Source of the DNA: Gammaproteobacteria bacterium | GTDB taxonomy: Bacteria > Pseudomonadota > Gammaproteobacteria > Burkholderiales > Gallionellaceae | Assembly: GCA_018813765.1 (NCBI GenBank) | Contig: JAHJBC010000012.1 | Span: forward strand, 124,001 to 188,000 | Length of the DNA stretch: 64,000 nucleotides | Direction: 5' to 3' | In this document: piece by piece, positions 3,908 to 64,000 of the stretch | Layout of the letters: every line of letters begins with the position of its first letter | Position numbering within the stretch: position 1 is the stretch's first letter | Translations under genes and position numbers: made by a program | Notes under the pieces: generated by a model | The model's database searches: none | The model's input: the letters and a program-made list of their open reading frames with translations, nothing else | Told to the model about the DNA's origin: nothing

Positions 3908-6900
3908 TCACTTCGCGGATGTCGTCACCTCTATCCACTGCCCCTTGGTGCGGGCATACCGGGTGGCGTCATACATCGCCTCGACCTGCAAGCCGGGCTG
4001 GTAGAAACGTCCCAGATAAGCGGCATTGAGGCGGGTGGTGAACGTCAGGCTCTCGCCCGCCTTCAGCCCGAAATAACGCAACACGCGATCATCGCGGATA
4101 TCCATGTGTTCCAGGCCGGGCTGGATGCCGGTTCCTTCCATGCGTTCGTTGTTGATCTCGTAAGTCGCGGCGACCATCTGGGTCAGTGCCAGGTTGTCCA
4201 GCTTGAGATTGGAGATGTTCTTCACGGTCACCGTGGCAACGATATCCTGTCCCTGGCGCAAACGCGAAACATCCAGCACCGCTCCGTCCTCGTTCTTGTA
4301 AGCGACATCCAGCGACAGCCCGGAGGAGGCCGCTTCATCCCCGCCCGATTTTGCGATGCCACGGGTCATGAGGGTCGCATACAGGCTGCGTTCCGAGGTG
4401 TTCTTGATCTTGACCTTGGCGCCCTGATCCGGGAAGTTCCCCATCATTGCCGTGTGGATGGCCGCGTTGGACTTGAAGCTTTCGGTCTTGCCCTGCACGG
4501 AGCGATCGAAGCTGTAATCGCCGATCTTGCCGTTGCCGACGAATTTGGACATCGCCATCAGCGAGTAGGCGAGCGTTTGCGTGCTGTGCCATCTCTCGGA
4601 TGCGAGCTGGGCGGAGATCTCGTCCACCAGCGGCTTGGCCTGATCCAACTGGTTGAGGATCACCAGGCTGTTGAGCACGATGGCCGTGTCGCGCAGCCGC
4701 GAGCCGAAGGTCGCATCTGGCTGGGCATATTCGCCGAGGGTCATCGGGTCGCCCTTGACCAGACTGGTCGCGGCATCGCTCTGTCCCGCCAGTTTGTACG
4801 CGGCCGCCAGCATCCAGCGTGCCGAGGACGGCAGCTTGGGCGTTTCGCGCAGACGGTTCATCGCGCCCACTTCCGGCTGGTTCGCCAGCGCCAGCGTATA
4901 CAGGCGATATGCCTGATCCAGCATCGAAGCATCGCCGCCCGCTGTCCAGGCCTGAGCGGCGGATTTCTGGAAGCGCGCCCAGTCGGAGAGCATGCTGGGC
5001 GGAACCTGGTAGCCCAGCTTGTTGGCTTCGACCAGGAAGTGCCCGGCGTAATTGGTGGACCAGGCATTGCGTGCATCGAAGCCGGAAGTGAATCCGCCCG
5101 GCCAGTAGCCGAATGCGCCGCTTGGCAACTGGAAGCCGCGCAGGCGCTGGAACGCCGCGTGCATGTGTTTCTCGATCTCCTGCTTGCGCGTCTCTTCGAG
5201 CTTGACCAGCGATGCCAGATACAACTGCGGGAACGCGGAGGAGGTGGTCTGCTCCACGCAGCCGTGCGGATACTGGATCAGGTAATGCAGGTGCCGCTCC
5301 AGGTCGAGCGGGGGCACGCCCGAGATCTCCAGCGTGGTGACGTTGGTGCCCGGCATGCCATGCGGGATCACCTCGGCTTCCCACGATTCGCCCGGCATCA
5401 ATGCCTTGCGCTGGTAGCGGGTGGAGGGCGGATTGGGGCTGCGTATCTCCAGGAACACATCCGCCTGGGCCTGGTGCTTGCCGCTGGTGGCGATGATCCT
5501 GAGCTTGCCCTTGCCCAGCCGCGCACTGCTCTTCAGCTTGAGCATGCCCAGTTTTTCGTCGGGTTGCGAGAAGGCCACTTTCACGGGCGTCGGGTCCGAC
5601 AACTGGAATTCCGGTCCGGTTTCCAGTTTGAGCGTGACTTCCTTGATGCCATTGTCCATCACGAACAACGACACCGGCACGGAGAACTCTTCTTCCGGGC
5701 CGACCACGCGCGGCAGCGTGGGCAACAGCATCAGCGGCTGACGCACAAAGACGGATTTTTCTGCGGAACCATAGGCGCTGCCGCTGTCGCTGCTGCCTGC
5801 TTCGGCAGCGACCACCATGACCCGCAGCGATCCGACATAAGGCGGCAGTTGCAGCTCATGTTTCTTGCGTTCACCGGAACTGAGTTTGAACGGACCAAGG
5901 TATTTGACGACCGGCGGGAAGCGCTTCTTCTCCCGCTTGGCCGCCTGTGCGGCATCGCCATCGCTGCCGCCCAGCGCCAGCAGGCGGTCAAGGCTGGCGC
6001 CGTATGCACCGGCGACTTCGTCGAACAGGTCCCAGGTGGTGACGCCCAGCGCCTCGCGCTGGTAGAAGTGGCTATGCAGGTTGGGTGTGCTGAAATTGGT
6101 GAGTCCCAGCAGGCCTTCATCCACCACGGCCAGGGTGTAGCTCATGGGCTGGCCATTCGCTTCCGATACTTCAACCGATACGTTGGACTCGGGTCTCCAT
6201 TCGTCGGCGGCGTTGATCTGCGGTTTCAGCTCCGTCTTCGGATCGGTGACGTGGATGGGAATCACGCCGTACAGTCGGATCGGCAGGTCGTTGTTTTTGC
6301 CTTCGTGCGGCTGGATCAGGGTCACGCTGACATAGACGTTGGGTGCCAAGGCGCGGGTGATTGGCAATTCGAACCTGGCCTTCTCCTTGTTGTCGCCTTG
6401 TCCGGGCGCGAATTCAATCCAGCGCGCTTCCAGGATGCCTGCTCCGTTCTCGACTGTGACCAGGGCGCGTCCCTGCGTTGCCTCGGGAAGCTGGATCACG
6501 GCCTTGTCGCCGACGGTGTATTTCTGTTTGTCGGATTGCAAGGTCAGCATGCTGGCACCCGGACCGGACTGATCCTGCGCACGGCCCGCCCAACCCGGCC
6601 AGTCGATGTACAGCGTGCTGCCGGTGCAGTGTTGTTCTTCGCCTTCGCTGATGTCGCAGGCACGCACCAGATAACGTCCCCAGTCGGGATATTTGATCTC
6701 GAATTCCCAGTTACCCTTGCCGTTGCTGGTGGCGACGGTGGATTGCAGGAGTTTGCTGGCGTGGGAAGCCGAGGCGTAATTTGCCAGCGATTCGCCGGAC
6801 TGGTCCCACCACCATTTCCAGTTGATCTTGTACAGCGTGACCTGGACCTTCTTCACCGAGACGGGCTTGCCGTCCGACGACAGGCTGGCGATCTCCACCA

Positions 6901-9568
6901 CATGTTTCTTGTCGGTCAGCAACATATTGCGGCTGGCGTCGCCTTTGGGCAGCTTGATGCCGATGTATTGCGCGTAGGGCGAGTAGGGCATGCTCTGGCG
7001 ATTGATGCTGAATGCGCCGCCGCGTTCGAACACGCGACTGGTCAGTGAGGCGGTGAGCATGCCGGGCGCGTTTGCGTCGAGTTCGATCTCGTGTTCGAAG
7101 TCGGCTTCCCCGGACTCATTCAGATCACCTTCGAAAATGGTGGTCGGTACTGCGGTGAACTCGCGCGCCGGGTCTTCGAAGTTGAAATCCGTGTAACGGT
7201 CGAAGCGGGTGCTTGCACGGTTCAGGCGCAGCTCCACGTCGGCCTTGAGTCCGGCAGCGCTGGCCCCGGTGAGCCACTGCGCGGCCAGCTTGCCGCTCAG
7301 CGGTTCGCCGCCGGAGAGTTTCTTCGCCAGTTCCACTCCCACTTTGAGGCGGTTGGGCATCACCGTTTCCACCTTGATGGTCTTGCTGAAGCTGGCGCCG
7401 CCCAGGATGGCTTTTGCGGTCCAGTCACCGGTGGGGGAACTTTCCTCGGTACGCATCGTGAACTTGTACATCTCGCCGACCGGCGAGGCGTTGGTCAGGG
7501 TTTGCACCACTTGTCCCTGCGGGTCGCGCAGTTCCATCGTCACCGGGTGGTTGGCGGGCAGGCTCTTGTCCTTGTCTTGCAACACAAAGGTCAGGAAGAT
7601 ATCGTCGCCGGGCCGCCATACGCCGCGTTCGCCATAGATGAATCCCTTGATTCCTGCCGCGATCTTTTCGCCGCCCACATCGAAATGGCTGATCGGCAGT
7701 GCAAGTCCCTGGGCCACTTTCAGATAGCCTTTTTGTCCGTCCTTCTCGGCCAGCAGGTAGAAAGGCGTACCACCCTGTTTGAAGCGAGCCATGCCATCGC
7801 CGTCGGTGGTCTCGGTGGTGATCACCTGGTTCTGGAAATTCATCGCGTTGACCTTGATACCCTTGAGCGGTGCCGAGGTCCTCAGGTCGGTGGCGACCAC
7901 CAGCATCCGGCCTTGCGGATCGCGCTTGGCGATCAGGCCGATGTTGGAGGCCAGGAAATTGCGTTCATCGCGGATGCTGAACTTTTCCTGGTTGCCATAG
8001 TAATAATTGCGGCTGGCATTGAGGCGGTAATAGGAATTCGAGCAGGGGTTGGCGCGCTCATTCCAGTTGATGGCTTCCGACTGGTTGTAATAGTCCTCCG
8101 CATAATCCCAACTGCTGGCTTCGTTGACTTCCAGTGTTTCGGCATTGCCGGGCGGGGCATCGATCTCGCTGTCGGCCGCAGCATCGCCTGAACAGGGATA
8201 GACGGAATCCGCTTTGGTGATGGAGAGGGTCAGGCGGAACAAACCGCCGGGGTGTTTCTGGAAGAGTTCCGACACATCCAGGTGGTGGCGCTGCCATTTG
8301 TTGGCTTCCAGCGCAGACAGGGGGATGGTCTTGCGCCACAGGACGCGGCCGACCCGCGACAATTCCTGATTGCCGTCCAGCTTGTTCACTTGCAGGAATT
8401 GCCCCACGTTGTCGTCGTAGATGCGCATGGCCGCGACGCGCACCGAGCGCACATTGACCGCCTCGAACGGGACGCTCAATACCTTGCTGTCGGGCAGGAT
8501 CACCCCCTTGCCGACAAAACGCACCTGGGGCTTCGAGCTGATGAAGGTAAGGGTATGCTGGGATTGCGCCGTCGTTCTCTCGCCTTCGGCATTGCGTATG
8601 CCGGGCTCCAGTGTGAGCAGGACTTCGCCCTGGATACCGCTCTCGGGATAGATCTTCAGGATGTTGCCTTCGATGCGCTGGGTGGTGCGCAGGTCGCTGC
8701 CCAGCCGCACCAGTCCCTGCAGGTTCTGGTTGGCCTTCAGCGAGTCCGAGAAGAAGACTTTAATGAACGGCTGCTGGTCCTCGCTGGCGATGCTGGCCTG
8801 CATGACCTTGAACTGGGACAGGCCGGGGATGACTATCGTGCGCTCGCCCTGGTTGTTCACACCGATGGGTTCGCCGTTCCATTTCAGGGTGATGTTCGAG
8901 TCGGCTTCCGCGCGTTGTATGCCTTTTACGGTGAAGTCGTGGTGGCGTGCATCGACGTTGTGGTTCCAGGCGATGGTCGCCTCTTTGTCCTGATAGCGGG
9001 CTTGCAGCAAGGACTCGATCTTTTGCGCCTCTTCCACATCGGCGGTGACCAGGTTTCCGTTCAGGGTCATCACCTGCTTGTTGTCGGCGTCGGCGACCAG
9101 TCCGCCCACATTCACCTCGAATTGCTGCGGCTGCACCTGCACCACGAATTCGTAGGTCTTGAGTTTCTCCACCATGTTGAGCAAACCGGACGTATCCAGT
9201 GTCACGTGATAGGCCGTTCCTTGCTCCAGTTCGGTTTCCGGCGTCAGCACGATCTCGCGCTGGCTGGCAAAACTGATCTTGCCCTTCACCGAGGGTTTGG
9301 TTTCGAGATGATCCTCCGCATCCTGACCGACGCGGTCGCTGGTGATGATGTCGTTGGCGAACACCACGCGGATGGACGATTTGCGCGAAATCATGCCGCT
9401 GCTGTGCGCGCTGATGATGTGGCTCCAGGCCGCATCCTGTACGGGGATGACCGGGAGGTCGGCTGATGATTTGAAGAGGTCGCAGCCGGAAAGCGCGCCG
9501 AATACGAGCAGGAACAATGAAATGAAGAACGGAAAGACTCGATCGAAACGCTTGACTGCACGTGGCAT
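3908..9568 (-). CDS. yfhM: Bacterial alpha-2-macroglobulin lipoprotein (YfhM-like)
   Basis: An 1886-aa envelope protease trap. The N-terminus is a lipoprotein signal with lipobox ALSGC (Cys29). A long array of beta-sandwich MG domains follows, and the thioester motif GCVEQTT lies near residue 1437, followed by alpha/alpha-toroid and receptor-like regions. Family knowledge: the thioester covalently captures attacking proteases in the periplasm, and PbpC is thought to repair peptidoglycan, which explains the adjacent pbpC. ATG at 9568 is chosen because it opens directly into the signal peptide. This is the large thioester-containing class, not the thioester-less one. Confidence 0.95.
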   Translation of the reverse strand: MPRAVKRFDRVFPFFISLFLLVFGALSGCDLFKSSADLPVIPVQDAAWSHIISAHSSGMISRKSSIRVVFANDIITSDRVGQDAEDHLETKPSVKGKISFASQREIVLTPETELEQGTAYHVTLDTSGLLNMVEKLKTYEFVVQVQPQQFEVNVGGLVADADNKQVMTLNGNLVTADVEEAQKIESLLQARYQDKEATIAWNHNVDARHHDFTVKGIQRAEADSNITLKWNGEPIGVNNQGERTIVIPGLSQFKVMQASIASEDQQPFIKVFFSDSLKANQNLQGLVRLGSDLRTTQRIEGNILKIYPESGIQGEVLLTLEPGIRNAEGERTTAQSQHTLTFISSKPQVRFVGKGVILPDSKVLSVPFEAVNVRSVRVAAMRIYDDNVGQFLQVNKLDGNQELSRVGRVLWRKTIPLSALEANKWQRHHLDVSELFQKHPGGLFRLTLSITKADSVYPCSGDAAADSEIDAPPGNAETLEVNEASSWDYAEDYYNQSEAINWNERANPCSNSYYRLNASRNYYYGNQEKFSIRDERNFLASNIGLIAKRDPQGRMLVVATDLRTSAPLKGIKVNAMNFQNQVITTETTDGDGMARFKQGGTPFYLLAEKDGQKGYLKVAQGLALPISHFDVGGEKIAAGIKGFIYGERGVWRPGDDIFLTFVLQDKDKSLPANHPVTMELRDPQGQVVQTLTNASPVGEMYKFTMRTEESSPTGDWTAKAILGGASFSKTIKVETVMPNRLKVGVELAKKLSGGEPLSGKLAAQWLTGASAAGLKADVELRLNRASTRFDRYTDFNFEDPAREFTAVPTTIFEGDLNESGEADFEHEIELDANAPGMLTASLTSRVFERGGAFSINRQSMPYSPYAQYIGIKLPKGDASRNMLLTDKKHVVEIASLSSDGKPVSVKKVQVTLYKINWKWWWDQSGESLANYASASHASKLLQSTVATSNGKGNWEFEIKYPDWGRYLVRACDISEGEEQHCTGSTLYIDWPGWAGRAQDQSGPGASMLTLQSDKQKYTVGDKAVIQLPEATQGRALVTVENGAGILEARWIEFAPGQGDNKEKARFELPITRALAPNVYVSVTLIQPHEGKNNDLPIRLYGVIPIHVTDPKTELKPQINAADEWRPESNVSVEVSEANGQPMSYTLAVVDEGLLGLTNFSTPNLHSHFYQREALGVTTWDLFDEVAGAYGASLDRLLALGGSDGDAAQAAKREKKRFPPVVKYLGPFKLSSGERKKHELQLPPYVGSLRVMVVAAEAGSSDSGSAYGSAEKSVFVRQPLMLLPTLPRVVGPEEEFSVPVSLFVMDNGIKEVTLKLETGPEFQLSDPTPVKVAFSQPDEKLGMLKLKSSARLGKGKLRIIATSGKHQAQADVFLEIRSPNPPSTRYQRKALMPGESWEAEVIPHGMPGTNVTTLEISGVPPLDLERHLHYLIQYPHGCVEQTTSSAFPQLYLASLVKLEETRKQEIEKHMHAAFQRLRGFQLPSGAFGYWPGGFTSGFDARNAWSTNYAGHFLVEANKLGYQVPPSMLSDWARFQKSAAQAWTAGGDASMLDQAYRLYTLALANQPEVGAMNRLRETPKLPSSARWMLAAAYKLAGQSDAATSLVKGDPMTLGEYAQPDATFGSRLRDTAIVLNSLVILNQLDQAKPLVDEISAQLASERWHSTQTLAYSLMAMSKFVGNGKIGDYSFDRSVQGKTESFKSNAAIHTAMMGNFPDQGAKVKIKNTSERSLYATLMTRGIAKSGGDEAASSGLSLDVAYKNEDGAVLDVSRLRQGQDIVATVTVKNISNLKLDNLALTQMVAATYEINNERMEGTGIQPGLEHMDIRDDRVLRYFGLKAGESLTFTTRLNAAYLGRFYQPGLQVEAMYDATRYARTKGQWIEVTTSAK

Positions 9569-31584: not shown

Positions 31585-32061
31585 ATGAGCAAGGTTCCAT
31601 TGACACTGAACGGCGCAGAGCTATTACGTCAGGAGTTGCACCGGCTGAAGACGGTGGATCGCCCCTCGGTCATCACCGCGATCGCGGAAGCGCGCGCTCA
31701 GGGTGACCTGTCGGAGAACGCCGAATACGAGGCCGCCAAGGAACGCCAGTCGTTCGTGGAAGGGCGCATCGTCGAATTGGAATTCAAGCTGGGTAGCGCG
31801 CAAGTCATCGATCCCAAGACGCTCAATGCGGACGGGCGCTGTGTGTTCGGATCGACCGTGGTGCTGGAAGACACCAACAACGGCGATGTGGTGACCTATC
31901 AGATCGTCGGCGACGACGAGGCAGACATCAAGCATCGCAAGATTTCCATCAGTTCACCGATCGCGCGCGCGTTGATCGGCAAGTCCAGTGGCGACATCGC
32001 CGAGGTGCAGGCACCGGGCGGGATACGCGAGTACGAAGTGGTGGATGTGCAGTATATCTAG
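31585..32061 (+). CDS. greA: Transcription elongation factor GreA
   Basis: A 158-aa factor that rescues backtracked RNA polymerase. The N-terminal coiled coil includes the acidic tip ([19 protein letters not shown]) and the C-terminal FKBP-like domain ends in [16 protein letters not shown]. The TAG stop (32059-32061) coincides with the first bases of a GTAGC-type repeat. It follows carB, an arrangement common in betaproteobacteria. Confidence 0.97.
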
Positions 32062-32132
32062 CTGGTAGCGCGTAGCCTGTAGGAGGTAGCCAGGCGGTTC
32101 TGCTACAAGCTACTGGCGACGAGCTGCCAGCT
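32060..32132. repeat. GTAGC/GCTAC palindromic repeat, copy 1
   Basis: The left arm 32060-32090 and right arm 32102-32132 are imperfect inverted copies of GTAGC/TGTAG steps, with a loop GTAGCCAGGCGGTTCTGCTAC similar to that of copy 3. It sits between the convergent genes greA and yhbY and overlaps both ends, giving the final codons or stop codon of each. It may also act as a bidirectional terminator. Confidence 0.85.
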
Positions 32133-32467: not shown

Positions 32468-32538
32468 CCTGTAGGTGGTAGCTTGTAGCCTGTAGCTGAA
32501 CCGGGGGTGGCTACACGCTACCAGCCACAAGCTACGGG
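32468..32538. repeat. GTAGC/GCTAC palindromic repeat, copy 2
   Basis: Arms 32468-32496 and 32509-32538. The loop ACCGGGGGTGGCTAC is the reverse complement of the loop in copy 3 at 35.1 kb, so this copy is homologous but inverted. It occupies almost the whole 89-base gap between the divergent yhbY and rlmE, where their promoters would be expected. Confidence 0.85.
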
Positions 32539-35130: not shown

Positions 35131-35133
35131 AGC

Positions 35134-35209
35134 AGCTCGTGGCAGGTAGCTTGTAGCGGGTAGCCACCCCCGGTTTTGCTACCAGCTACGGGCTACAAGC
35201 TACAAGCTT
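35134..35209. repeat. GTAGC/GCTAC palindromic repeat, copy 3
   Basis: The left arm 35134-35164 and right arm 35178-35209 are inverted copies (GGTAGCTTGTAGC against GCTACAAGCTAC), with loop CACCCCCGGTTTT. It lies three bases after the ftsH stop and ends directly at the folP ATG (35210), replacing the normal ribosome-binding region. Confidence 0.88.
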
Positions 35210-55834: not shown

Positions 55835-57089
55835 TCTGCGGTTCCGCGTCGCCTTCTATTACGCTTTGTTCGGTGCCGGACTCAGCATCATGCTGTCCGG
55901 TGGCGTCTATCTGACCGTGCAGAGGATAGGCACCCACCTCATTGACGAGACCCTGCAGGTGGAGATGGACGAGCATGCCGGCTATCTGGCGTTCGTCTCG
56001 CCCAACACCAAATCCATCATCGGCTACGCCCTCTACCGGAACGAACCCGAGGAGCGGATTCCTGTTGAACTCAGAAAGCTCAATCCGGGCAGGTACGATA
56101 TCAAGGTCCGGAATCACAATTACCGCGTGCTGGTGGAGGACAAGAACGAAGCGCGCTTCTACATGCTGTTCGATACGGAAAGCCTGCACACGCGGGAAGA
56201 GCAGTTCTTCCGCTACATGATCTTCTTCGCCATATTCATGATCGTCAGCTCGTCCATCGGCGGCGTGCTGCTGGCCAGCCGCGTCACCGCATCCGTCACC
56301 CGCCTGGCCAGGCAGGTCGGACAGGCCGAGCCCGGCGATCCAAACCTTGATCTGGTCGAACTGACCAGCAACGACGAAGTCGGCGAACTGGCGCGCGCCT
56401 TCGACCGCTACCTGAAACGACTGCGCGAATTCATCGAACGCGAGAAATACTTCACCGCGGACGTGAGCCACGAACTGCGCACGCCGCTCGCCATCATGCT
56501 GGGTACGGTCGAAGTGATGGAACAGGACGAGACCCTGTCGATGCGGCAGAGAACCAAGCTCGCGCGCATCCGCCGCGCGGCACAGGACATGATCGACCTG
56601 ACTTCGGCGCTGCTGCTGATGGCGCGCGAACAGCAGCACTTTGCGGACGAGAACCCCTGCCATGTGGGCGAAGTATTGAGAAGCTGCGTCGAGAAGCACC
56701 TGCCGCTGACCGCCGGTCGGCCCATTCGCCTGGAAGTGGAATTGATCGCCGAGCCCGACCTGACCGCCGAACAACCCCTGCTCGAGATCGTGATCGGCAA
56801 CCTGATCCGCAATGCCCTGTTCAACACCAAGTCGGGCTCGGTGCTGCTGCGGCTCGAAAAGGACAAGCTGATCGTCAGGGATACCGGCGTCGGCATGCGG
56901 CCGGAAGTGCTGGCGCGCGCGCTCGACCACTATTACAAGGGCCCCTCCAGCGCCGGGTCGGGCGTCGGCCTGTCGCTGGTCAAGCGCATCTGCGAGCGTT
57001 ACGGCTGGCAGATCGCGCTCGAGAGCGAGGAGGGCAAGGGCACCACTGCAACGATTGGATTCGCGCCATCGCAAAGCCGGAGCGAGTAG
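55818..57089 (+). CDS. Sensor histidine kinase
   Basis: 423 aa. TM1 is about residues 10-32 and the periplasmic sensor about 33-128, with TM2 about 133-155. HAMP, then an H-box with phosphorylated His in ADVSHELRTPLAIML, and a HATPase domain with N-box IVIGNLIRNALFN and G-boxes DTGVGM and GSGVGLSLV follow. ATG 55818 overlaps the response regulator end. The periplasmic ligand is unknown. The sensor is short and unlike PAS-containing kinases. Confidence 0.93.
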   Translation: MFQTNSLRFRVAFYYALFGAGLSIMLSGGVYLTVQRIGTHLIDETLQVEMDEHAGYLAFVSPNTKSIIGYALYRNEPEERIPVELRKLNPGRYDIKVRNHNYRVLVEDKNEARFYMLFDTESLHTREEQFFRYMIFFAIFMIVSSSIGGVLLASRVTASVTRLARQVGQAEPGDPNLDLVELTSNDEVGELARAFDRYLKRLREFIEREKYFTADVSHELRTPLAIMLGTVEVMEQDETLSMRQRTKLARIRRAAQDMIDLTSALLLMAREQQHFADENPCHVGEVLRSCVEKHLPLTAGRPIRLEVELIAEPDLTAEQPLLEIVIGNLIRNALFNTKSGSVLLRLEKDKLIVRDTGVGMRPEVLARALDHYYKGPSSAGSGVGLSLVKRICERYGWQIALESEEGKGTTATIGFAPSQSRSE

Positions 57090-57127
57090 GCCGGGGTGAG
57101 CTTGCGATCACCCGCTACCGATTGCGG

Positions 57128-57145
57128 GTCGGGCTTAAGCCCGAC
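57128..57145. repeat. 18-bp perfect palindrome GTCGGGCTTAAGCCCGAC
   Basis: A perfect palindrome preceded by GG, between the kinase and the YkgJ gene. It shares the GGTCGGG...CCCGAC design with the in-frame pair at 61138-61192, so it may be a member of the same family. Confidence 0.7.
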
Positions 57146-57207
57146 ATGTTTTACCGGGAAAGGCAGGACGGCACTGATTGATTCTGGCCAGGCTGGAAGC
57201 GCCTGCC

Positions 57208-57609
57208 TCAGGCGCCGAGTTCCTTCACCTGCGCGAGTATTGCGCGTGAACTTTCCTCGCTCAACATCCGCTCTGGCGCATAGCCATGCGGGCAGCGCAA
57301 TTCGCCTGTCGTCCCGAATATCCGGCAGATCGCCGGACGGACTGCATACACGGAACATTGATTGGTTTTCCGGTTCAGGAACGGGCAGCGGTAGTCGTTG
57401 TTGCTGACATCCTTCTGGATTTGATCGCGTACCTGTTGCAGGCTGCGGCCGGAAGCTTTCACGCAACGGTAGAATTCGAGACGCGAGTAGTGGATCGGGC
57501 CGCAGCAATCGGCACATCCCGGCTTGCACTTGAAGGACGGGATCGTGCTGTACAGTGCGTCGATCTCGGTCAGTTTTTCAGCGTTGGTCTTGTGGGTTTC
57601 GGTACTCAC
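57208..57609 (-). CDS. YkgJ family zinc/iron-chelating cysteine cluster protein
   Basis: 133 aa with the conserved cysteine set of the family: CKPGCADCC near the N-terminus, then CPFL, QCSVYAVRPAICRIFG and CPHG. These bind a metal or Fe-S cluster, and the exact function is unknown. Convergent with the sensor kinase and divergent from the cytochrome-porin. Confidence 0.9.
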   Translation of the reverse strand: MSTETHKTNAEKLTEIDALYSTIPSFKCKPGCADCCGPIHYSRLEFYRCVKASGRSLQQVRDQIQKDVSNNDYRCPFLNRKTNQCSVYAVRPAICRIFGTTGELRCPHGYAPERMLSEESSRAILAQVKELGA

Positions 57610-57935
57610 TTCGTGGCATGTCTTTCAGGTTGATTTTGCCGGACAACGTTTTGTTGAAGCCTGCATTGACTGATAGACTCGCAACAGAAGGATTCGGGTG
57701 ATGGGATGCCAATCCGTCGAGCTGGCCGCAGGATTATATCCAAACCCCCAGCACATCATTCGCCAACATTTTTCGCCTTGTGTTGCAAAAAACACAACTT
57801 CACGTTTCTTTCACATTCCATTGACATGACTTTAACAAGTGCGTTGCTAGTATCCCCCCCAACTTGTGCAGGGAGATTGCTTTTGCAGTTGCATGAGGGT
57901 TGTTTTTACACTCACTAATTTGGAGGAGAAACGCA
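57610..57935. other. 326-bp gap upstream of the cytochrome-porin
   Basis: No gene was found. The right half is A/T-rich and carries a TTGACA at 57821-57826. A short ORF at 57706-57918 lacks a ribosome-binding site and coding character. The last 95 bases form the leader with GGAGGA before the porin ATG. Confidence 0.6.
57821..57853 (+). promoter_or_regulatory. Candidate promoter of the cytochrome-porin
   Basis: A perfect TTGACA (57821-57826) is followed after 17 bases by TTGCTA, or after 21 bases by TAGTAT. Neither -10 is ideal, so an activator may be needed. The leader would be about 80 bases. Confidence 0.35.
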
Positions 57936-59165
57936 ATGAAGAAAATCGTACTGTCTCTGGCTGGCGTCCTGGCTGCCACCGCTTTCGCACCGGAAGCATC
58001 CGCCATCCCCGCTTTCGCAAGACAGCAGGGCAAGGCATGTTCCACCTGTCACTTCCAGCACTATCCCGCACTGAACGACTACGGTCGCAGCTTCAAGGCC
58101 GGCGGCTTCACCGACATGGGCAAGCAAGGCCTGATCAAGGGCCCGGCCATGTCCCTGCCCGAAGTGGCCAACTCCAGCCTGTTCTTCAAGTTCCGCTATC
58201 AGGATACCAACGGTACTGACGGTACTGGCACTGGACAATCCACCATCGCCAGCGGCGAATGGCAGATCCCCGACGAGTTCGCACTGCTGATGGGCGGCCG
58301 TGTCGCCGAGAACATCGGCTACATGTTTGAAGGCCAACTGGCCGACGGCACTGCGCCGGTTCTGGCCGGCTTCAAGATGCCGATCATGTTCCCGGTCGGC
58401 GAAGGCGAGATGAAGGTCGGCGTGGTGCCGTTCTCTACCGACGGTCTGGGCGCCTCCTACGGCTTCGAACTGCTGAACACCGGCGCCGTGCGTAACGTGC
58501 GTATCTCCGAGATGCGTAGCGAGACTTCCGCCCAGCAGTACATTGGCGCAGCGCGTGAAGCGCAGGGTCTGGCCTTCGTGGTGGTCGACCCGATGTTCTT
58601 CGTCAACGTGACCAAGTATACCGATGGTCTCGCCGGCGGCCAGAAGATGCTGGGTGGCCTGACCTATCTGCGCGCGGGTGTGACCCCGACCGTGGGTGAG
58701 TGGGATCTGGGTGTCGGCGTCCAGTCTTGGTCGGGCACTTCAACCGAAGCTAATGGTTTCAAGAACGACGACGTCAAGGCAACCGCCATCGACGCGCAGG
58801 CACAAGGTGCCGTGGCCGGCATGCCGATGGGGGCGTATTTCACCTATGCGACCGCTCCGGCTTCCGGCACTACTGTCAACGTGTTCAACACCGGAACTGC
58901 CAATGCCAAGAAGGCCATGACCATCATGGCTGAACTCGGCGTGCTGCCCGGCTCTGTGACCGTCATGGCTGCCTACCGCAAGGCGGATACCGGTGCTGCG
59001 ACCAACTCCAAGGACGATGCCATCACCATCGGTGGCACCTATGCGATCGCCCAGAACGTCTCGTTCCAGGTGTCGCATACCACTCGCAGCAAGAACGGTA
59101 ACGTCGGTCGTTATGCCGGTGGTGGCGACCAGTTCACCAACTTCATGCTGTCCGCAGGTCTGTAA
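57936..59165 (+). CDS. Monoheme cytochrome-porin fusion (Cyc2-like architecture)
   Basis: 409 aa with a signal peptide (MKKIVLSLAGVLAATAFA...ASA). The mature N-terminus IPAFARQQGKACSTCHFQHY holds one CxxCH heme motif (CSTCH) and LNDYGRSFKAGGF. About 340 residues of alternating polar/hydrophobic, glycine-rich strands follow, ending in aromatic FMLSAGL, as expected for an outer-membrane beta-barrel. This heme-plus-porin plan is that of Cyc2-type iron oxidases, which pass electrons across the outer membrane. The CHFQHYP variant may be a distinct subfamily, so the substrate is unproven. A strong GGAGGA ribosome-binding site lies upstream. Confidence 0.72.
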   Translation: MKKIVLSLAGVLAATAFAPEASAIPAFARQQGKACSTCHFQHYPALNDYGRSFKAGGFTDMGKQGLIKGPAMSLPEVANSSLFFKFRYQDTNGTDGTGTGQSTIASGEWQIPDEFALLMGGRVAENIGYMFEGQLADGTAPVLAGFKMPIMFPVGEGEMKVGVVPFSTDGLGASYGFELLNTGAVRNVRISEMRSETSAQQYIGAAREAQGLAFVVVDPMFFVNVTKYTDGLAGGQKMLGGLTYLRAGVTPTVGEWDLGVGVQSWSGTSTEANGFKNDDVKATAIDAQAQGAVAGMPMGAYFTYATAPASGTTVNVFNTGTANAKKAMTIMAELGVLPGSVTVMAAYRKADTGAATNSKDDAITIGGTYAIAQNVSFQVSHTTRSKNGNVGRYAGGGDQFTNFMLSAGL

Positions 59166-59181
59166 TGAAGGGTTGACCATT

Positions 59182-59212
59182 AAAGGAAGGCCGCAAGGCC
59201 TTCCTTTTTTGT
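59182..59212 (+). terminator. Rho-independent terminator after the cytochrome-porin
   Basis: AAAGGAAGGCC (59182-59192) pairs with GGCCTTCCTTT (59197-59207) as a perfect 11-bp stem around a GCAA tetraloop, followed by a T-run. It separates the porin transcript from the cytochrome genes downstream. Confidence 0.95.
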
Positions 59213-59255
59213 TTTTTGCGTGATCAAATTAATACAGAATTCATGGGAGGATCGC

Positions 59256-59975
59256 ATGAAGCATAACTATAAAAGCATCGGCAGATGCCTGCGCACATTG
59301 GGTGTGCTGATCGGCATGATGTTCATGCCGATGACTTCTGCCTGGGCCGAGGATGCACCGGCACCTGCGACGGAAGCCGCAGCACCGGCAACGGAAGCCG
59401 CACCCGCACCAGAAGTCGCGGCGGCACCTGCCGGGCCGCAGCCGCTGGAAGAGCGCCTGCAACTGTGCGCTGGTTGCCACAACCCCGACGGCAACAGCAT
59501 CATTCCGGAGAACCCCAAGCTGTCCGGTCTGGATGCCAAATATCTCCTCCGCCAGCTCAAGGACTTCAAGAGCGGCGACCGCACCAATGACATCATGAGC
59601 GGCATCATCGGCATGGTGGATGAGTCGGAGTTCAAGGATCTGGCTGCCTACTTCAACGAGCAGAAACGCTCGGAGGGGGTCACCGAGAAACCCGAACTGG
59701 CCGCGCAGGGCAAGCAGATATTCGACGAAGGTATCATCGGCAGCGCTGTACCGGCCTGCTCCGGTTGCCACAATGAGGATGGCAGCGGTACCAACAAGTA
59801 TCCGCGCCTGAACGGACAGAACCCGGTATACGTTGCCAACCAGTTGAAGAATTTCAAGAGCGGCGCGCGCAAGAACGACCCGAAGGCAGTCATGCAGACG
59901 GTTGCCAAGCGTATGAACGATGCCGAGATTGAAGCCGTGGCCGAGTATATCGTTACCCTGAAGGAAGCCCAATGA
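59256..59975 (+). CDS. Diheme cytochrome c4-type protein
   Basis: A 239-aa periplasmic protein. The signal peptide ends SAWA. An Ala/Pro/Glu-rich linker (about residues 32-62, repeated ATEAA and APAP units) follows. The first heme domain has CAGCH and the second CSGCH, with the C4 pattern of PRLNGQNPVYVANQLKNFKSG. It probably shuttles electrons between an outer-membrane donor and inner-membrane oxidases. GGGAGG lies five bases before ATG 59256. It overlaps the next gene (ATGA). Confidence 0.92.
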   Translation: MKHNYKSIGRCLRTLGVLIGMMFMPMTSAWAEDAPAPATEAAAPATEAAPAPEVAAAPAGPQPLEERLQLCAGCHNPDGNSIIPENPKLSGLDAKYLLRQLKDFKSGDRTNDIMSGIIGMVDESEFKDLAAYFNEQKRSEGVTEKPELAAQGKQIFDEGIIGSAVPACSGCHNEDGSGTNKYPRLNGQNPVYVANQLKNFKSGARKNDPKAVMQTVAKRMNDAEIEAVAEYIVTLKEAQ

Positions 59976-60673
59976 TGAAAACATTACTCTCTATCTGTGT
60001 GGCGCTGCTGTTGCCTTTGCAGGCAGTTGCAGCCGATGCTTACGTTCCCAAGGTCTACGGCAAGAAGGGTTACGTCTGGGACGAGATGACCCCGGAACGC
60101 GTCGAAGTGCTGCGTCTGGGCGGCGACCCGGTCAAGGGCAAGGAAGCCTTCCGCGGCTGTCGCGGTTGCCACAAGGCCGATGCGGCCGGCGTACGCGAAG
60201 GCGTGTATCCGCGCCTCTCCGGACAGCACACCAGCGTGCTGATCAAGCAGATCACCGAGATCCGCGCCGGCATCCGCCTCAACCCGAAGATGCTGCCGTT
60301 CGTCGAGGACCCTGCCATCGCACTGGAAGAGATCGGTGATATCGCCGTCTATCTCAACCAGGTGGAATCGCTGCGCGAGAACGGCAAGGGTCCCGAGGAT
60401 ATGTCGGCCAAGGGCAAGAAGCTGTATTTCGCCAACAAGTGCGACACCTGCCACGGCAAGAACGGCGAGGGCGATGCTGCCAAGGCCTTCCCGGTGCTGG
60501 CCGCCCAGCACTATGGCTACCTGATGCGCGAAATGAAGTTGATCGAGACCGGGGCGCGCGGCAACTCGCACCCCGACATGGTCAAGGCGATCGCCAAGTT
60601 CTCGCAGACAGACCGCGAGGCCGTGGCCGATTACCTGTCGCGTCTGCCGGATTACCGCACGCTCGCCAAATAA
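59972..60673 (+). CDS. Diheme cytochrome c (c4-like)
   Basis: 233 aa with a signal peptide (MMKTLLSICVALLLPLQAVAA) and two heme motifs, CRGCH and CDTCH, each followed by PRLSGQ- or PVLAAQHYGYL-type c4 segments. A family-atypical N-terminal insert (DAYVPKVYGKKGYVWDEM) comes before the first heme. Translationally coupled to the previous cytochrome gene, so the two are made together, and a terminator closes the operon. Confidence 0.9.
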   Translation: MMKTLLSICVALLLPLQAVAADAYVPKVYGKKGYVWDEMTPERVEVLRLGGDPVKGKEAFRGCRGCHKADAAGVREGVYPRLSGQHTSVLIKQITEIRAGIRLNPKMLPFVEDPAIALEEIGDIAVYLNQVESLRENGKGPEDMSAKGKKLYFANKCDTCHGKNGEGDAAKAFPVLAAQHYGYLMREMKLIETGARGNSHPDMVKAIAKFSQTDREAVADYLSRLPDYRTLAK

Positions 60674-60701
60674 ATAACAACCAGAAAGCAGCACCAAATC
60701 C

Positions 60702-60728
60702 GAGCCCGGGCAACCGGGCTCTTTTTTT
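60702..60728 (+). terminator. Rho-independent terminator after the diheme cytochromes
   Basis: GAGCCCGG (60702-60709) and CCGGGCTC (60714-60721) form an 8-bp stem with a GCAA loop, followed by seven T. Confidence 0.95.
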
Positions 60729-60792
60729 GTGGCGAGAATATGTGCCTTCTCTGACGGTCTGCCGCACATTCTGCGGTAATATCCTGCGCACC

Positions 60793-62814
60793 ATGCTTCA
60801 AGTCAAAAACCTGCTTACGCGGCTGCGCGGCGGCGCGAATATCGTGGACGATATCTCGTTCGAGATCGCGCCGGGCGAGACCTTCGCCCTGCTCGGCGAA
60901 TCCGGCTGCGGCAAATCCATGACTGCGCTTTCGCTGATGCGCTTGCTGCCGGATGGCCTGGAGAACAGTGGCGGCGAAGTGCGGCTGGAGGACATCACCC
61001 TGTTCGGTTTGAGTGAGCGCGAGATGTGCGAAATGCGCGGCGGCAGGATGGCGATGATCTTCCAGGAACCGGGGCTGAGCCTGAATCCGGTGATGACGGT
61101 GGGGGAGCAGATCGCGGAGGTGCTGAGGTTGCATGGTGTGGGTCGGGATTCATCCCGACGCAGTTTCGATGTCGGGATAAATCCCGACCCACAGACCTCC
61201 GTGCAGCAGCGTTGTATTGAGTTACTGGACGAGGTCGGCATCCCCGACGCTTCCCGCCGCATGGACGAATACCCGTTCCAGCTTTCCGGCGGCATGAGGC
61301 AGCGCGTGATGATCGCGATGGCACTGGCGGGCAGCCCCAAGCTGCTCATCGCGGACGAACCGACCACGGCGCTGGATGTGACGATCCAGGCGCAGGTTCT
61401 GCAACTGCTGCGCGACACGCAGGACAATTCCGGTATGGCAATGCTGCTCATCACCCACGATCTCGGCGTGGTGGCGGAGAACGCGCACCGTGTCGGTGTG
61501 ATGTATGCCGGGCAGATTGTCGAGCAGGCCACGCGCGAGCAGTTGTTCGCAAATCCTTTGCATCCCTACACCCAGAAACTGTTCGCCGCATTGCCGGACA
61601 GGGCGCGCGCGACACTCGCCGCCATCCCCGGCAGCGTTCCTGCGCCGGGCAGTATCGTGCAAGGCTGTCGCTTTGCACCGCGTTGCGACAAGGCGTGGGA
61701 GCTGTGTCGCGAGCAGACGCCGGAATTGCTTGCGGTGGAAGGGCGCGGGGTGCGGTGCCATCTGTATTCGGAGCGGGTAGCTGGTAGCTTGTCGCCGGTA
61801 GCAAAGAACGAAAATTCGGAAGATGAGCAGACTCAGCCTGGCTACAAGCTACCAGCTACGAGCAACAAGCTCTTGCAGGTTGAAAACCTGCAAGTTCACT
61901 TCCCCATCCGCAAGGGCATCCTCAAGCGTATGGTCGGCAGCGTGAAAGCAGTGGATGGTGTCTCGCTATCCATCGCCCAAGGCTGCACCTTGGCATTGGT
62001 GGGTGAATCCGGTTGCGGCAAGACGACGCTGGGCAAGGCGTTGCTCGGGCTGGTGCCGGTCACGGCAGGCAGTGCAAGTTTTGAGGGCAGGGAGCTGAGC
62101 GTTGCCAAACGCAACAGACCCATGCAGATGGTGTTCCAGGACCCATATGCTTCGTTGAATCCCAAGATGCGCGTGGCCGAGATACTGGAAGAGGGGATGG
62201 GCGCGCTGGGCATCGGTGGCGACAGTGCGGCGCGACAGGAACATATCGACGGTTTGCTCGACAAGGTCGGTCTGGCGCGCTACAGCAAGTGGCGTTATCC
62301 GCACGAGTTCTCCGGCGGCCAGCGCCAGCGCATCGCCGTCGCGCGCGCGCTGGCGGTGTCGCCGCAACTGCTGATCTGCGACGAACCGACTTCCGCGCTG
62401 GATGTGTCGGTGCAGGCGCAGATATTGAATCTGCTGAAAGCGCTGCAACAGGAGCTGGGTTTGAGTTACCTCTTCATCACGCACAACCTTGCGGTGGTGG
62501 AATATCTCGCGCAGGAAGTATGCGTGATGTATCTGGGACGTATCGTCGAGCGTGGTTCGACGGAAGAGGTGATGCGATCGCCGAAGCATCCCTACACGCA
62601 GGCGCTGCTTGCTGCGGTGCCACGCATCGATGGAGCGGGAAGACAGCACATCAGGCTGGAGGGCGATATGCCGTCGCCCGCCGCGCCTCCCGCTGGCTGC
62701 CATTTCGCGCCGCGCTGTGCGCAGGCGATGGCGGCTTGTGCCGAATATCCTGGCGAGACGCAGCTCAGCGCAACGCACGGCGTGCGTTGCCATCTGTACG
62801 GAAAGGGAGCCTGA
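60793..62814 (+). CDS. Double ABC ATPase for peptide-type transporter (DppD-DppF/YejF-like)
   Basis: A 673-aa protein with two complete ATP-binding domains. Domain 1 (about 1-325): Walker A GESGCGKSM, signature LSGGMRQRVMIAMAL, Walker B LLIADEPTTALD. Domain 2 (about 360-673): [36 protein letters not shown]. Both end in oligopeptide-transporter C-terminal motifs (CRFAPRC and CHFAPRC). At 673 aa it is longer than the roughly 530 aa typical of YejF-like fusions. The excess includes two palindromic repeats read in frame: 61138-61192 within domain 1 and 61771-61872 in the linker. It is the likely engine for the permeases at 52.6-55.0 kb. Confidence 0.93.
   Translation: MLQVKNLLTRLRGGANIVDDISFEIAPGETFALLGESGCGKSMTALSLMRLLPDGLENSGGEVRLEDITLFGLSEREMCEMRGGRMAMIFQEPGLSLNPVMTVGEQIAEVLRLHGVGRDSSRRSFDVGINPDPQTSVQQRCIELLDEVGIPDASRRMDEYPFQLSGGMRQRVMIAMALAGSPKLLIADEPTTALDVTIQAQVLQLLRDTQDNSGMAMLLITHDLGVVAENAHRVGVMYAGQIVEQATREQLFANPLHPYTQKLFAALPDRARATLAAIPGSVPAPGSIVQGCRFAPRCDKAWELCREQTPELLAVEGRGVRCHLYSERVAGSLSPVAKNENSEDEQTQPGYKLPATSNKLLQVENLQVHFPIRKGILKRMVGSVKAVDGVSLSIAQGCTLALVGESGCGKTTLGKALLGLVPVTAGSASFEGRELSVAKRNRPMQMVFQDPYASLNPKMRVAEILEEGMGALGIGGDSAARQEHIDGLLDKVGLARYSKWRYPHEFSGGQRQRIAVARALAVSPQLLICDEPTSALDVSVQAQILNLLKALQQELGLSYLFITHNLAVVEYLAQEVCVMYLGRIVERGSTEEVMRSPKHPYTQALLAAVPRIDGAGRQHIRLEGDMPSPAAPPAGCHFAPRCAQAMAACAEYPGETQLSATHGVRCHLYGKGA
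61138..61192. repeat. In-frame GTCGGGATT/AATCCCGAC palindromic pair inside the ABC ATPase
   Basis: The left arm 61138-61159 and right arm 61171-61192 match at 21 of 22 positions as inverted copies around an 11-base loop. Each arm is itself near-palindromic. It encodes residues 116-134 (VGRDSSRRSFDVGINPDPQ), a stretch not expected between LRLHG and the helical segment CIELLDEVGIPD of DppD/OppD proteins. Confidence 0.88.
61771..61872. repeat. GTAGC/GCTAC palindromic repeat, copy 4, in the ATPase linker
   Basis: The left arm 61771-61802 and right arm 61840-61872 share a 16-base identical inverted core, GTAGCTGGTAGCTTGT. It encodes about residues 327-360, exactly the junction between the two ATPase domains, and is open in the frame used. 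Other copies of the family, at 32.1, 32.5 and 35.1 kb, lie between genes. Confidence 0.88.
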
Positions 62815-62821
62815 TCCGGGT

Positions 62822-64000
62822 TTACAGCGGAGTGAGGGATGTGCGGGCCGGTTGGCTTGCGCTGGCCTTCTTGACCTTGCTGGATTTGGACGCGACCTTG
62901 CGCTTGCGGCTGGAACTGCGGTCGGCAAGCACGATGTTGAAACGCTGGCCGACGCGCAGGAAGGTGCGGCCATGGTTCTGTTCACGTAGTTGCGCCTGGC
63001 TTACATGGAACTTGCGCGCGATGGTGGAGATGGTGTCGCCCCTGCGTACGGTGTAGCGCACAGCCCCGTACATCTCCTGCACGGCGGTCGGATGCATGTT
63101 GAACGCGGCGAATTCCGCAGCGGGCTGTTCTTCCACGATGGGAACCAGCAGGGTCTGGCCGTTGCTTTCCTGGGCGAACCTGGACAGGCCGTTCGCCGTG
63201 CGCAGTTCGGCCACGCTGAGATCGAAGCGTGCGGCGATCTGGTCGAAACGCTCGCCCTTCTTGCTTTCATACGGTTGCCACGAGACCAGGCGTTGGTCGG
63301 TCTTTTCCAGGTTATTGCGGAAGTTCTCCACCTTGTCCACCGGTAGCAACAGCACGTCGTTGGTATCTTGCAGGATCACCGGACGGTTGTGGCCGGGGTT
63401 GAGGGCGAGGAACTCGTCCATCGAAATGTCGGCCAGTTCGGCGGCCACTTTTACGTCGATGTGGCGCGAAGTCGCGACCGCTTCGAAATAGGGCTGGTCC
63501 GGGATCTCGCTCAGCGTCAGGCCGAAGCGGGCCGGGTCGGAGACGATGTTCTTGACGGCCATCAGTTTGGGCACGTAATTCTGCGTCTCGCGCGGCATCC
63601 GAAGATGGGAATAGTCGGTTGGTTTGCGCAGCCTGCGATTCTTGGCCTGCGCGCGTGCGACTGCGTTCTCTCCCCAGTTGTAGGCGGCCAACGCCAGTTC
63701 CCAATCGCCGAACTGGCTGTGCAGCTTTTCCAGGTAGTCCAGCGCGCCGTTGGTTGCACCGATGATGTCGCGGCGGCCGTCGTACCACCAATTCTGTTCC
63801 ATGCCGAAATGTTTGCCGGTGGAGGGGATGAACTGCCAGATGCCCGAGGCGCTTGCCACCGAGTTGGCGCCGGGATTGAACGCGCTCTCGATCATCGGCA
63901 GCAGCGCAATTTCCATCGGCATGTTGCGGCGTTCGACTTCTTCCACAATGTAGTGCAGATAGCGGCGCGCGCGCTCTGTCATGCGCAGGACATATTCGGG
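62822..64000 (-). CDS. mltD: Membrane-bound lytic transglycosylase D, N-terminus cut by window edge
   Basis: At least 392 residues are in the window; the frame stays open through 64000, so the start and signal peptide lie outside. The GH23 domain has the catalytic Glu in MIESAFNPGANSVASASG, then GIWQFIPSTGKHFG and the AAYNWGENAV segment. Three LysM-like repeats follow; the last is the clearest (YTVRRGDTISTIARKFHVSQ). The basic tail (KRKVASKSSKVKKA) is unusual. It cleaves glycan strands. The visible PEYVLRMTERARRYL supports coding upstream of the internal ATG at 63982. Confidence 0.93.
   Translation of the reverse strand, partial: PEYVLRMTERARRYLHYIVEEVERRNMPMEIALLPMIESAFNPGANSVASASGIWQFIPSTGKHFGMEQNWWYDGRRDIIGATNGALDYLEKLHSQFGDWELALAAYNWGENAVARAQAKNRRLRKPTDYSHLRMPRETQNYVPKLMAVKNIVSDPARFGLTLSEIPDQPYFEAVATSRHIDVKVAAELADISMDEFLALNPGHNRPVILQDTNDVLLLPVDKVENFRNNLEKTDQRLVSWQPYESKKGERFDQIAARFDLSVAELRTANGLSRFAQESNGQTLLVPIVEEQPAAEFAAFNMHPTAVQEMYGAVRYTVRRGDTISTIARKFHVSQAQLREQNHGRTFLRVGQRFNIVLADRSSSRKRKVASKSSKVKKASASQPARTSLTPL

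Follow-up and report, generated by a model that had tools for sequence, protein, structure and literature searches.

In a member of the Gallionellaceae, a relative of iron-oxidising bacteria, a dispersed palindrome built of 7-bp units is read in frame as the linker between the two halves of a fused DppD/DppF-type ABC ATPase. Relatives often hold different heptad palindromes in the same linker, a wider pattern than the earlier note on this DNA had described, the class of palindrome has changed many times over the tree of the gene, and two other coding sites are similar. It is probable that palindromes resident in the genome repeatedly take the place of permissive coding linkers, in a way that resembles intragenic REPs. 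The resulting natural series of linkers lets one ask how repeats enter genes and which joints tolerate arbitrary sequence, and it also bears on the way in which a palindromic array of 7-bp units preserves its form despite sequence change.

Coordinates refer to the window, the whole 64,000-nt stretch of DNA that was analysed, in which the gene and its parts are arranged as follows.

60793–62814, plus strand: fused DppD/DppF-type ABC ATPase, 673 aa (domain matches, PRK11308, orthologues)
60793–61767, plus strand: first ATPase half (NBD1 and its C-terminal region), residues 1–325
61768–61869, plus strand: interdomain linker, residues 326–359 (orthologue alignment)
61770–61804, plus strand: left arm of the linker element, GGAGCGG-GTAGCTG-GTAGCTT-GTCGCCG-GTAGCAA
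61805–61838, no strand assigned: loop of the linker element, 34 nt (~8 nt in canonical copies)
61839–61866, minus strand: right arm of the linker element, four heptads, minus-strand reading
61870–62811, plus strand: second ATPase half (NBD2), residues 360–673

The 673-aa frame contains two ABC_tran and two oligo_HPY domains, the composition of a fused dipeptide/oligopeptide ABC ATPase, and its protein passes the dipeptide ATPase model PRK11308 (score 592 bits, cut-off 408). It scores below the cut-offs of the YejF (microcin C) model (543 vs 834 bits) and the GsiA (glutathione) model (545.6 vs 1077 bits). In the ORF list for window positions 57000–64000, c-type cytochrome-like genes precede the fused ATPase and no ABC permease is evident by eye. 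The inverted 16-base core reported earlier between the two NBDs is indeed there, with GTAGCTGGTAGCTTGT matching exactly at 61777–61792 (plus strand) and 61844–61859 (minus strand), both inside the 673-aa frame; a repeat finder returns 20-nt arms at 61777–61796 and 61840–61859 that are 95% complementary. The whole element spans 61770–61866 and consists of five left heptads, the 34-nt loop and four right heptads. With up to three mismatches the core is matched 16 times in the window, as compared to a mean of 0.21 and a maximum of 2 in 100 shuffles.

These matches extend to the rest of the 3.14-Mb genome, in which GTAGCTGGTAGCTTGT has 68 sites with up to two mismatches (one site for the reversed control). 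From the window and 27 further stretches of this genome we assembled a set of 34 elements, 28 of them two-armed. A typical element reads 4×(GTAGCNN), a loop of ~8 nt and 4×(NNGCTAC); in some copies the loop is longer and encloses a nested GC-rich palindrome. The consensus is matched in 235, 229, 218, 242 and 236 of 242 heptads at the five successive core positions, and between arms the cores pair at 524 of 565 positions and the spacers at 82 of 226 (shuffled mean 62.9; equally high in 6 of 1000 shuffles). Core positions are thus 90–100% conserved and spacers much less so, apart from the loop-adjacent ones, which are non-random (of 28 arms on each side, 20 left and 19 right ones have CA or AA there), although this contrast is inflated because the elements were chosen by their core, using heptads with no more than one core mismatch. 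Even decay from a single master copy is a poor fit, given that the core is kept and the spacers less so, with the same inflation by the choice of core.

By a simple ORF rule, 20 of the 34 elements are in codirectional, six in convergent and four in divergent settings, and four are intra-ORF; two of the last (L119 and L130) lie solely in minus-strand ORFs that may be spurious. Conserved proteins hold a GTAGC element in frame in two of the 34 cases, namely the ABC linker and a loop of an FAD-linked oxidase with Fe-S domains (L124). Three further copies in the window are noncoding.

32058–32127, no strand assigned: noncoding GTAGC heptad palindrome
32471–32535, no strand assigned: noncoding GTAGC heptad palindrome
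35132–35203, no strand assigned: noncoding GTAGC heptad palindrome

At the first two of these, and at L126, L127, L132, L135, L137 and L141, an ORF end reaches 4 bases into the element, which would be the picture if a neighbouring gene took its stop codon from the TAG of the outermost GTAG.

The linker element is open in only one of its six frames, namely the coding frame, so that it is read through without a stop as had been claimed. The companion claim, that other copies are stop-rich, holds for most full-size copies, but some short half-elements are open in two or three frames; 13 of the 33 other elements have stops in all six frames. Within the coding copies, the TAG of every third left-arm heptad falls in frame, and three heptads stand in this phase: GGAGCGG and GTCGCCG, the first and fourth left heptads of the linker, and GTTGCCT of the FAD loop. 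TAG is absent from all three, compared with 214 of 250 heptads of the other elements that retain it (Fisher P=0.003, with only three heptads on one side), and the left-arm heptads of the two coding copies that stand in other phases keep it in six of seven instances. GAG-type linkers have CGA where their class would give TGA at ten loci, possibly through shared descent. The genome-wide family, the open coding frame and this sign of selection bear out the proposal that a dispersed repeat has come to be read as protein.

A stop codon in the linker hidden by a sequencing error, which had been raised as a way in which that proposal could fail, is unlikely, because the coding frame is free of stops in all 33 distinct Gallionellaceae linkers, while their other forward frames contain one in 47 of 66 cases. 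The stop-free linkers of the loci from the named collection are a biased sample, because an open frame was a condition for keeping those loci. No such condition applied to 21 congener loci, in which the sole stops are at residue 579 of L019 and residue 659 of L020, both outside the linker. The L019 stop (genome G011) is an in-frame TAG in the second half of the ABC gene, and this gene may therefore be broken or misassembled.

Relatives were compared using 37 Gallionellaceae rows, some of them assigned to the family by identity and tree position, which reduce to 33 distinct linkers after four duplicate pairs are collapsed; many of the assemblies are metagenome bins. Relative to codon shuffles, a 7-bp periodicity is present at p≤0.01 in 29 of the 37 rows (26 of the 33 distinct) and in 2 of 62 other rows, and an inverted repeat in 24 of the 37 (22 of the 33) and 6 of the 62. 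Neither is present at this threshold in six of the 33 distinct linkers (L021, L024, L026, L027, L030 and L050). The heptad is GTAGCNN here, GAGTGCT in L012–L014 and GGATACG in L018, L019 and L022; L015, L017, L020, L040 and L047 have GAGGACT-like linkers, and L010, L011, L016, L028, L029 and L042 have GGGAA-rich ones, all of these classes being assigned by eye and some on degenerate sequence. The linker of the Gallionellaceae locus L051 adds another kind of repeat at this site, a long inverted repeat (score 31) without 7-bp periodicity. Outside the family, the linkers of L058 (a Burkholderiales bin) and L084 (Chromatium weissei) are 7-bp periodic, and because of them the phenomenon may be wider.

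We built a tree from the ABC cores (a single gene, with the linker and the NBD1 insert described below left out; 32 tips, omitting the fragment L030), on which 11 of 34 inner branches are unresolved. Counting 'none' as one state, the repeat class changes at least 16 times over the 32 tips, for a possible minimum of 6 and a shuffled mean of 18.4, with values as low in 11 of 200 shuffles. Linker class is thus tied to ancestry weakly. The closest view of a change is given by L019 and L012, which share 83–93% identity in each of the windows outside the linker and 34% inside it, whereas the linkers of L019 and L022 are 83% identical and their flanking windows 67% and 83%. The group of four that includes L012 and L019 is firm, with a tree support of 97, and the L012–L019 pair is modestly supported, at 86, and 0.51 in a second analysis. 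None of the compared loci offered a clean empty site with a target duplication.

Several of the linker heptads correspond to families resident in the same genome. With at most one mismatch GTAGCTGGTAGCTTGT has 30 sites here, two of them in the linker, and none in 27 other genomes, 24 congeners among them. AGTGCTG is present in 10 of the 28 genomes (54 sites in G007, 45 here, 13 in G016, 9 in G013, and 8 each in G004, G008 and G014), and GGATACG in 11 of the 28 (52 in G013, 39 in G024, 20 in G019 and 9 in G011). Among the sites listed, those of the linker's own class lie outside the linker in 51 of 54 cases in G007, 6 of 8 in G008 and 8 of 8 in G014, and likewise in 6 of 9 in G011, 49 of 52 in G013 and 35 of 39 in G024. 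GAGGACT has three sites in the 28 genomes, one of which is the G005 linker itself (reversed control 1); within G005 the linker is the sole match with at most one mismatch, and a degenerate pattern allowing three mismatches finds seven sites, three of them in the linker. The G005 linker fits drift in place better, because its heptad is not a resident family, and part of the turnover is divergence, because GAGTGCT- and GAGGACT-type linkers share register and codons.

Two further coding sites, one within NBD1 and one in the FAD-linked oxidase, behave like the linker. The first is an inverted pair of a different family.

61138–61192, no strand assigned: inverted GTGGGTCGGGATTCATCCCGAC-family pair in frame inside NBD1, with units at 61138–61159 and 61171–61192 (inverted repeat, family sites)

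The NBD1 stretch between EVLRLH and ELL is 13 aa long in 60 of 61 non-Gallionellaceae rows and has another length in 11 of 32 Gallionellaceae rows. The GTGGGTCGGGATTCATCCCGAC family, at up to three mismatches, has 13 sites here, 90 in G015, 93 in G017 and 92 in G021, with matches in 12 of 28 genomes and none for the reversed control, and it has the appearance of an ordinary GTAG-type REP family. In the FAD-oxidase loop, 24 rows classified by eye comprise eight with a repeat (of five kinds), 11 that share one common non-repeat form, and five others. The repeats are GTAGC here, AGTGCTG in L155 (G007), GTCGTTA in L158 (G005), a GTAGGTCGGG pair in L164 (G021), and CTCTCCC–GGGAGAG types in L156, L173, L175 and L176. 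GTCGTTA has 21 sites in G005 (three of them in the FAD loop), 14 here and 19 in G017, and the control has one match each in G003 and G011.

In the reading that we prefer, the linker of the anciently fused DppD-DppF-type ATPase would be a permissive site, presumably serving as a flexible tether only, and non-autonomous resident palindromes (here the GTAGCNN heptads) would enter or overwrite it. Insertion or conversion from resident copies could be followed by trimming and selection against stops, such that palindromes would be kept only while the product remains in frame, stop-free and ~30–40 residues long. A rather unlikely alternative, although the strongest of those considered, is that an old linker palindrome alters its heptads in concert by slippage between arms or template switching, with no donor. 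Long tandem heptad arrays are present in the genomes compared, linkers of the GAGTGCT and GAGGACT types have a common register and, at ten loci, the same CGA codon, and the linkers of L015 and L017, with a heptad that is hardly resident, agree at 85 of 105 aligned positions, all of which would suit change in place. It does not sit well with the wholly different linkers of L019 and L012 between such similar flanks, with an FAD loop that is non-repeat in 11 rows and of five repeat kinds in eight, or with a GTAGC family that is resident here and found in none of the 27 other genomes. We also offer, tentatively and as a still less likely view, that heptad palindromes are a distinct bacterial element class with a 5-bp core, 7-bp spacing and inverted arrays, kept by some machinery, with species trading classes and so rewriting intergenic gaps and tolerant coding linkers, and with mRNA hairpins that are possibly in part selected.

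It is improbable that the palindromes are selected, regardless of their sequence, as a useful hairpin in which RNA at the domain boundary slows translation and aids folding of the two halves. The palindrome does persist while its sequence changes, and the linker RNA folds far better than shuffles here (−46.2 kcal/mol, z −6.3) and in L012 (z −7.0), L017 (z −8.0) and L019 (z −10.3), four of a hand-chosen sample made up of this linker and five of the 32 others; such folding is no evidence of function, as it is a consequence of the palindromes. The RNAs of L024 (z −0.4) and L026 (z 0.5) fold no better than shuffles, the inverted repeat is found at p≤0.01 in only 6 of the 62 other rows, and intergenic copies have the same form, implying that the palindrome is a property of the repeat. 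An ordinary low-complexity linker that is palindromic by chance or codon bias is scarcely credible: linkers are variable in all relatives, as would be expected of it, but each of 200 codon shuffles misses the observed periodicity or palindrome here, and the 16-mer family is genome-wide. The earlier suggestion that the repeat joined once-separate dppD- and dppF-like genes is highly improbable as well. Elsewhere palindromes do occupy small gaps between codirectional genes, where loss of a stop could fuse the neighbours, but the fusion spans the linker in 21 of 24 congeners, where other linkers are present, and in other families and phyla, mostly with no palindrome. We conclude that the fusion is ancient and was not made by the repeat, because fused orthologues are present in all of these and in mycobacterial Rv1281c, the closest solved sequence, which is itself fused.

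The survey on which this conclusion is based gave full-length fused matches at 75–79% identity in 19 of the 24 congeners and linker-spanning matches cut by contig ends in G010 and G001. ATPase fragments were found in G017 and G023, and G020 (99% complete) has no orthologue of the fused ATPase, giving low-scoring paralogues alone. Sixteen genomes of other families yielded eight fused matches at 59–63% identity, a fused match at 52% with an internal TAA (G027), and, in seven, weaker ABC matches alone. The named collection comprises 80 loci that range from Gallionella, Sideroxydans, Sideroxyarcus and Nitrotoga to Nitrosomonas, Accumulibacter, Chromatium and other phyla; a fused frame is present in 69, and the 11 without one under a length and motif filter were excluded. 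Expansion of the linker in an existing fusion, the other possibility raised earlier, has weak backing: the linker is 34 aa here, with a median of 35 aa (range 29–55) in the 33 distinct Gallionellaceae linkers versus 29.5 aa (22–50) in 40 other beta/gamma rows, but two Nitrotoga-type rows already have 35 aa with no inverted repeat. These two rows form the deepest Gallionellaceae branch of the tree (inverted-repeat p of 0.58 and 0.54), and one of them, L049, scores as 7-periodic.

Repeats read as protein are already known, mostly as single insertions. REPs are read in frame in many proteins, with insertions in flexible linkers and loops suggested to be possibly neutral, and different REPs occupy about the same recB site in two Xanthomonas species, as described in PMC3733652. 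The intragenic GTAG REPs described there resemble the linker element in being palindromes in frame in linkers and loops, and the NBD1 insert is of this kind. GTAG/CGTC REPs are found mostly close behind stop codons, and GTAG forms an unpaired end tag on a stem of 5–13 bp (PMC3733652). The GTAGC family is similarly positioned near gene ends in codirectional or convergent settings, but the linker element lacks an unpaired GTAG tag, GTAGC being instead the paired core (524 of 565 positions across the family) of each 7-bp unit, with 4–5 units per arm.

Rickettsia palindromic elements likewise add in-frame segments to proteins of unrelated genes (PMC3733652), and as with those elements a palindrome stands in frame in a conserved protein in two of our 34 cases. 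They differ by description in sequence and host, and here, unlike there, different kinds occupy one site across species with little net growth. The TAACTGA heptamers of Beggiatoaceae are dispersed 7-bp direct repeats of one fixed unit, mostly intergenic, with some in ORFs and there mostly near the ends (PMC4679880). The heptads described here differ in forming inverted arrays, in being of several sequences and in lying between domains. Degenerate 7-nt units also make up the STRR heptanucleotide repeats of cyanobacteria. Rv1281c, YejF and GsiA similarly have two NBDs per chain, and it is the repeat-derived linker that sets the present protein apart. In a literature search that left subscription journals largely outside, we did not recognise heptad palindromes or their mutual replacement in linkers.

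A RAYT was considered as the mover of the heptads and set aside: in six genomes, 18 stretches of 2.0–4.0 kb that surround part of the Y1_Tnp hits contain no heptad chain of any of five classes, and the same test recovers 27 of 27 element loci. Y1_Tnp hits occur in 11 of 15 genomes, with five in this one.

The GTAGC class has a patchy distribution and is not confined to this species. Four exact GTAGCNN units in tandem are present in 11 of 399 genomes of the order, with 67 sites in G085, 31 here, 24 in G303, 19 in G329, 12 in G058, 7 in G066 and 1–3 in five others. Matches to the reversed control occur in 7 of the 399 (23 sites), and genomes with few sites or one tandem array therefore prove little. 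GTAGC heptads are abundant in G085, G058 and G303, which belong to other genera and families. The same pattern is found in 56 stretches of viral contigs, and in one of these (L221) two GTAGC palindromes, at 6387–6465 and ~6925–7007, fill the space from a stop codon to the start codon that follows. A GTAGC palindrome at ~1496–1572 of L205 (G387, from another genus of the family) is similarly placed between a stop codon and the AGGAG and ATG of the next gene.
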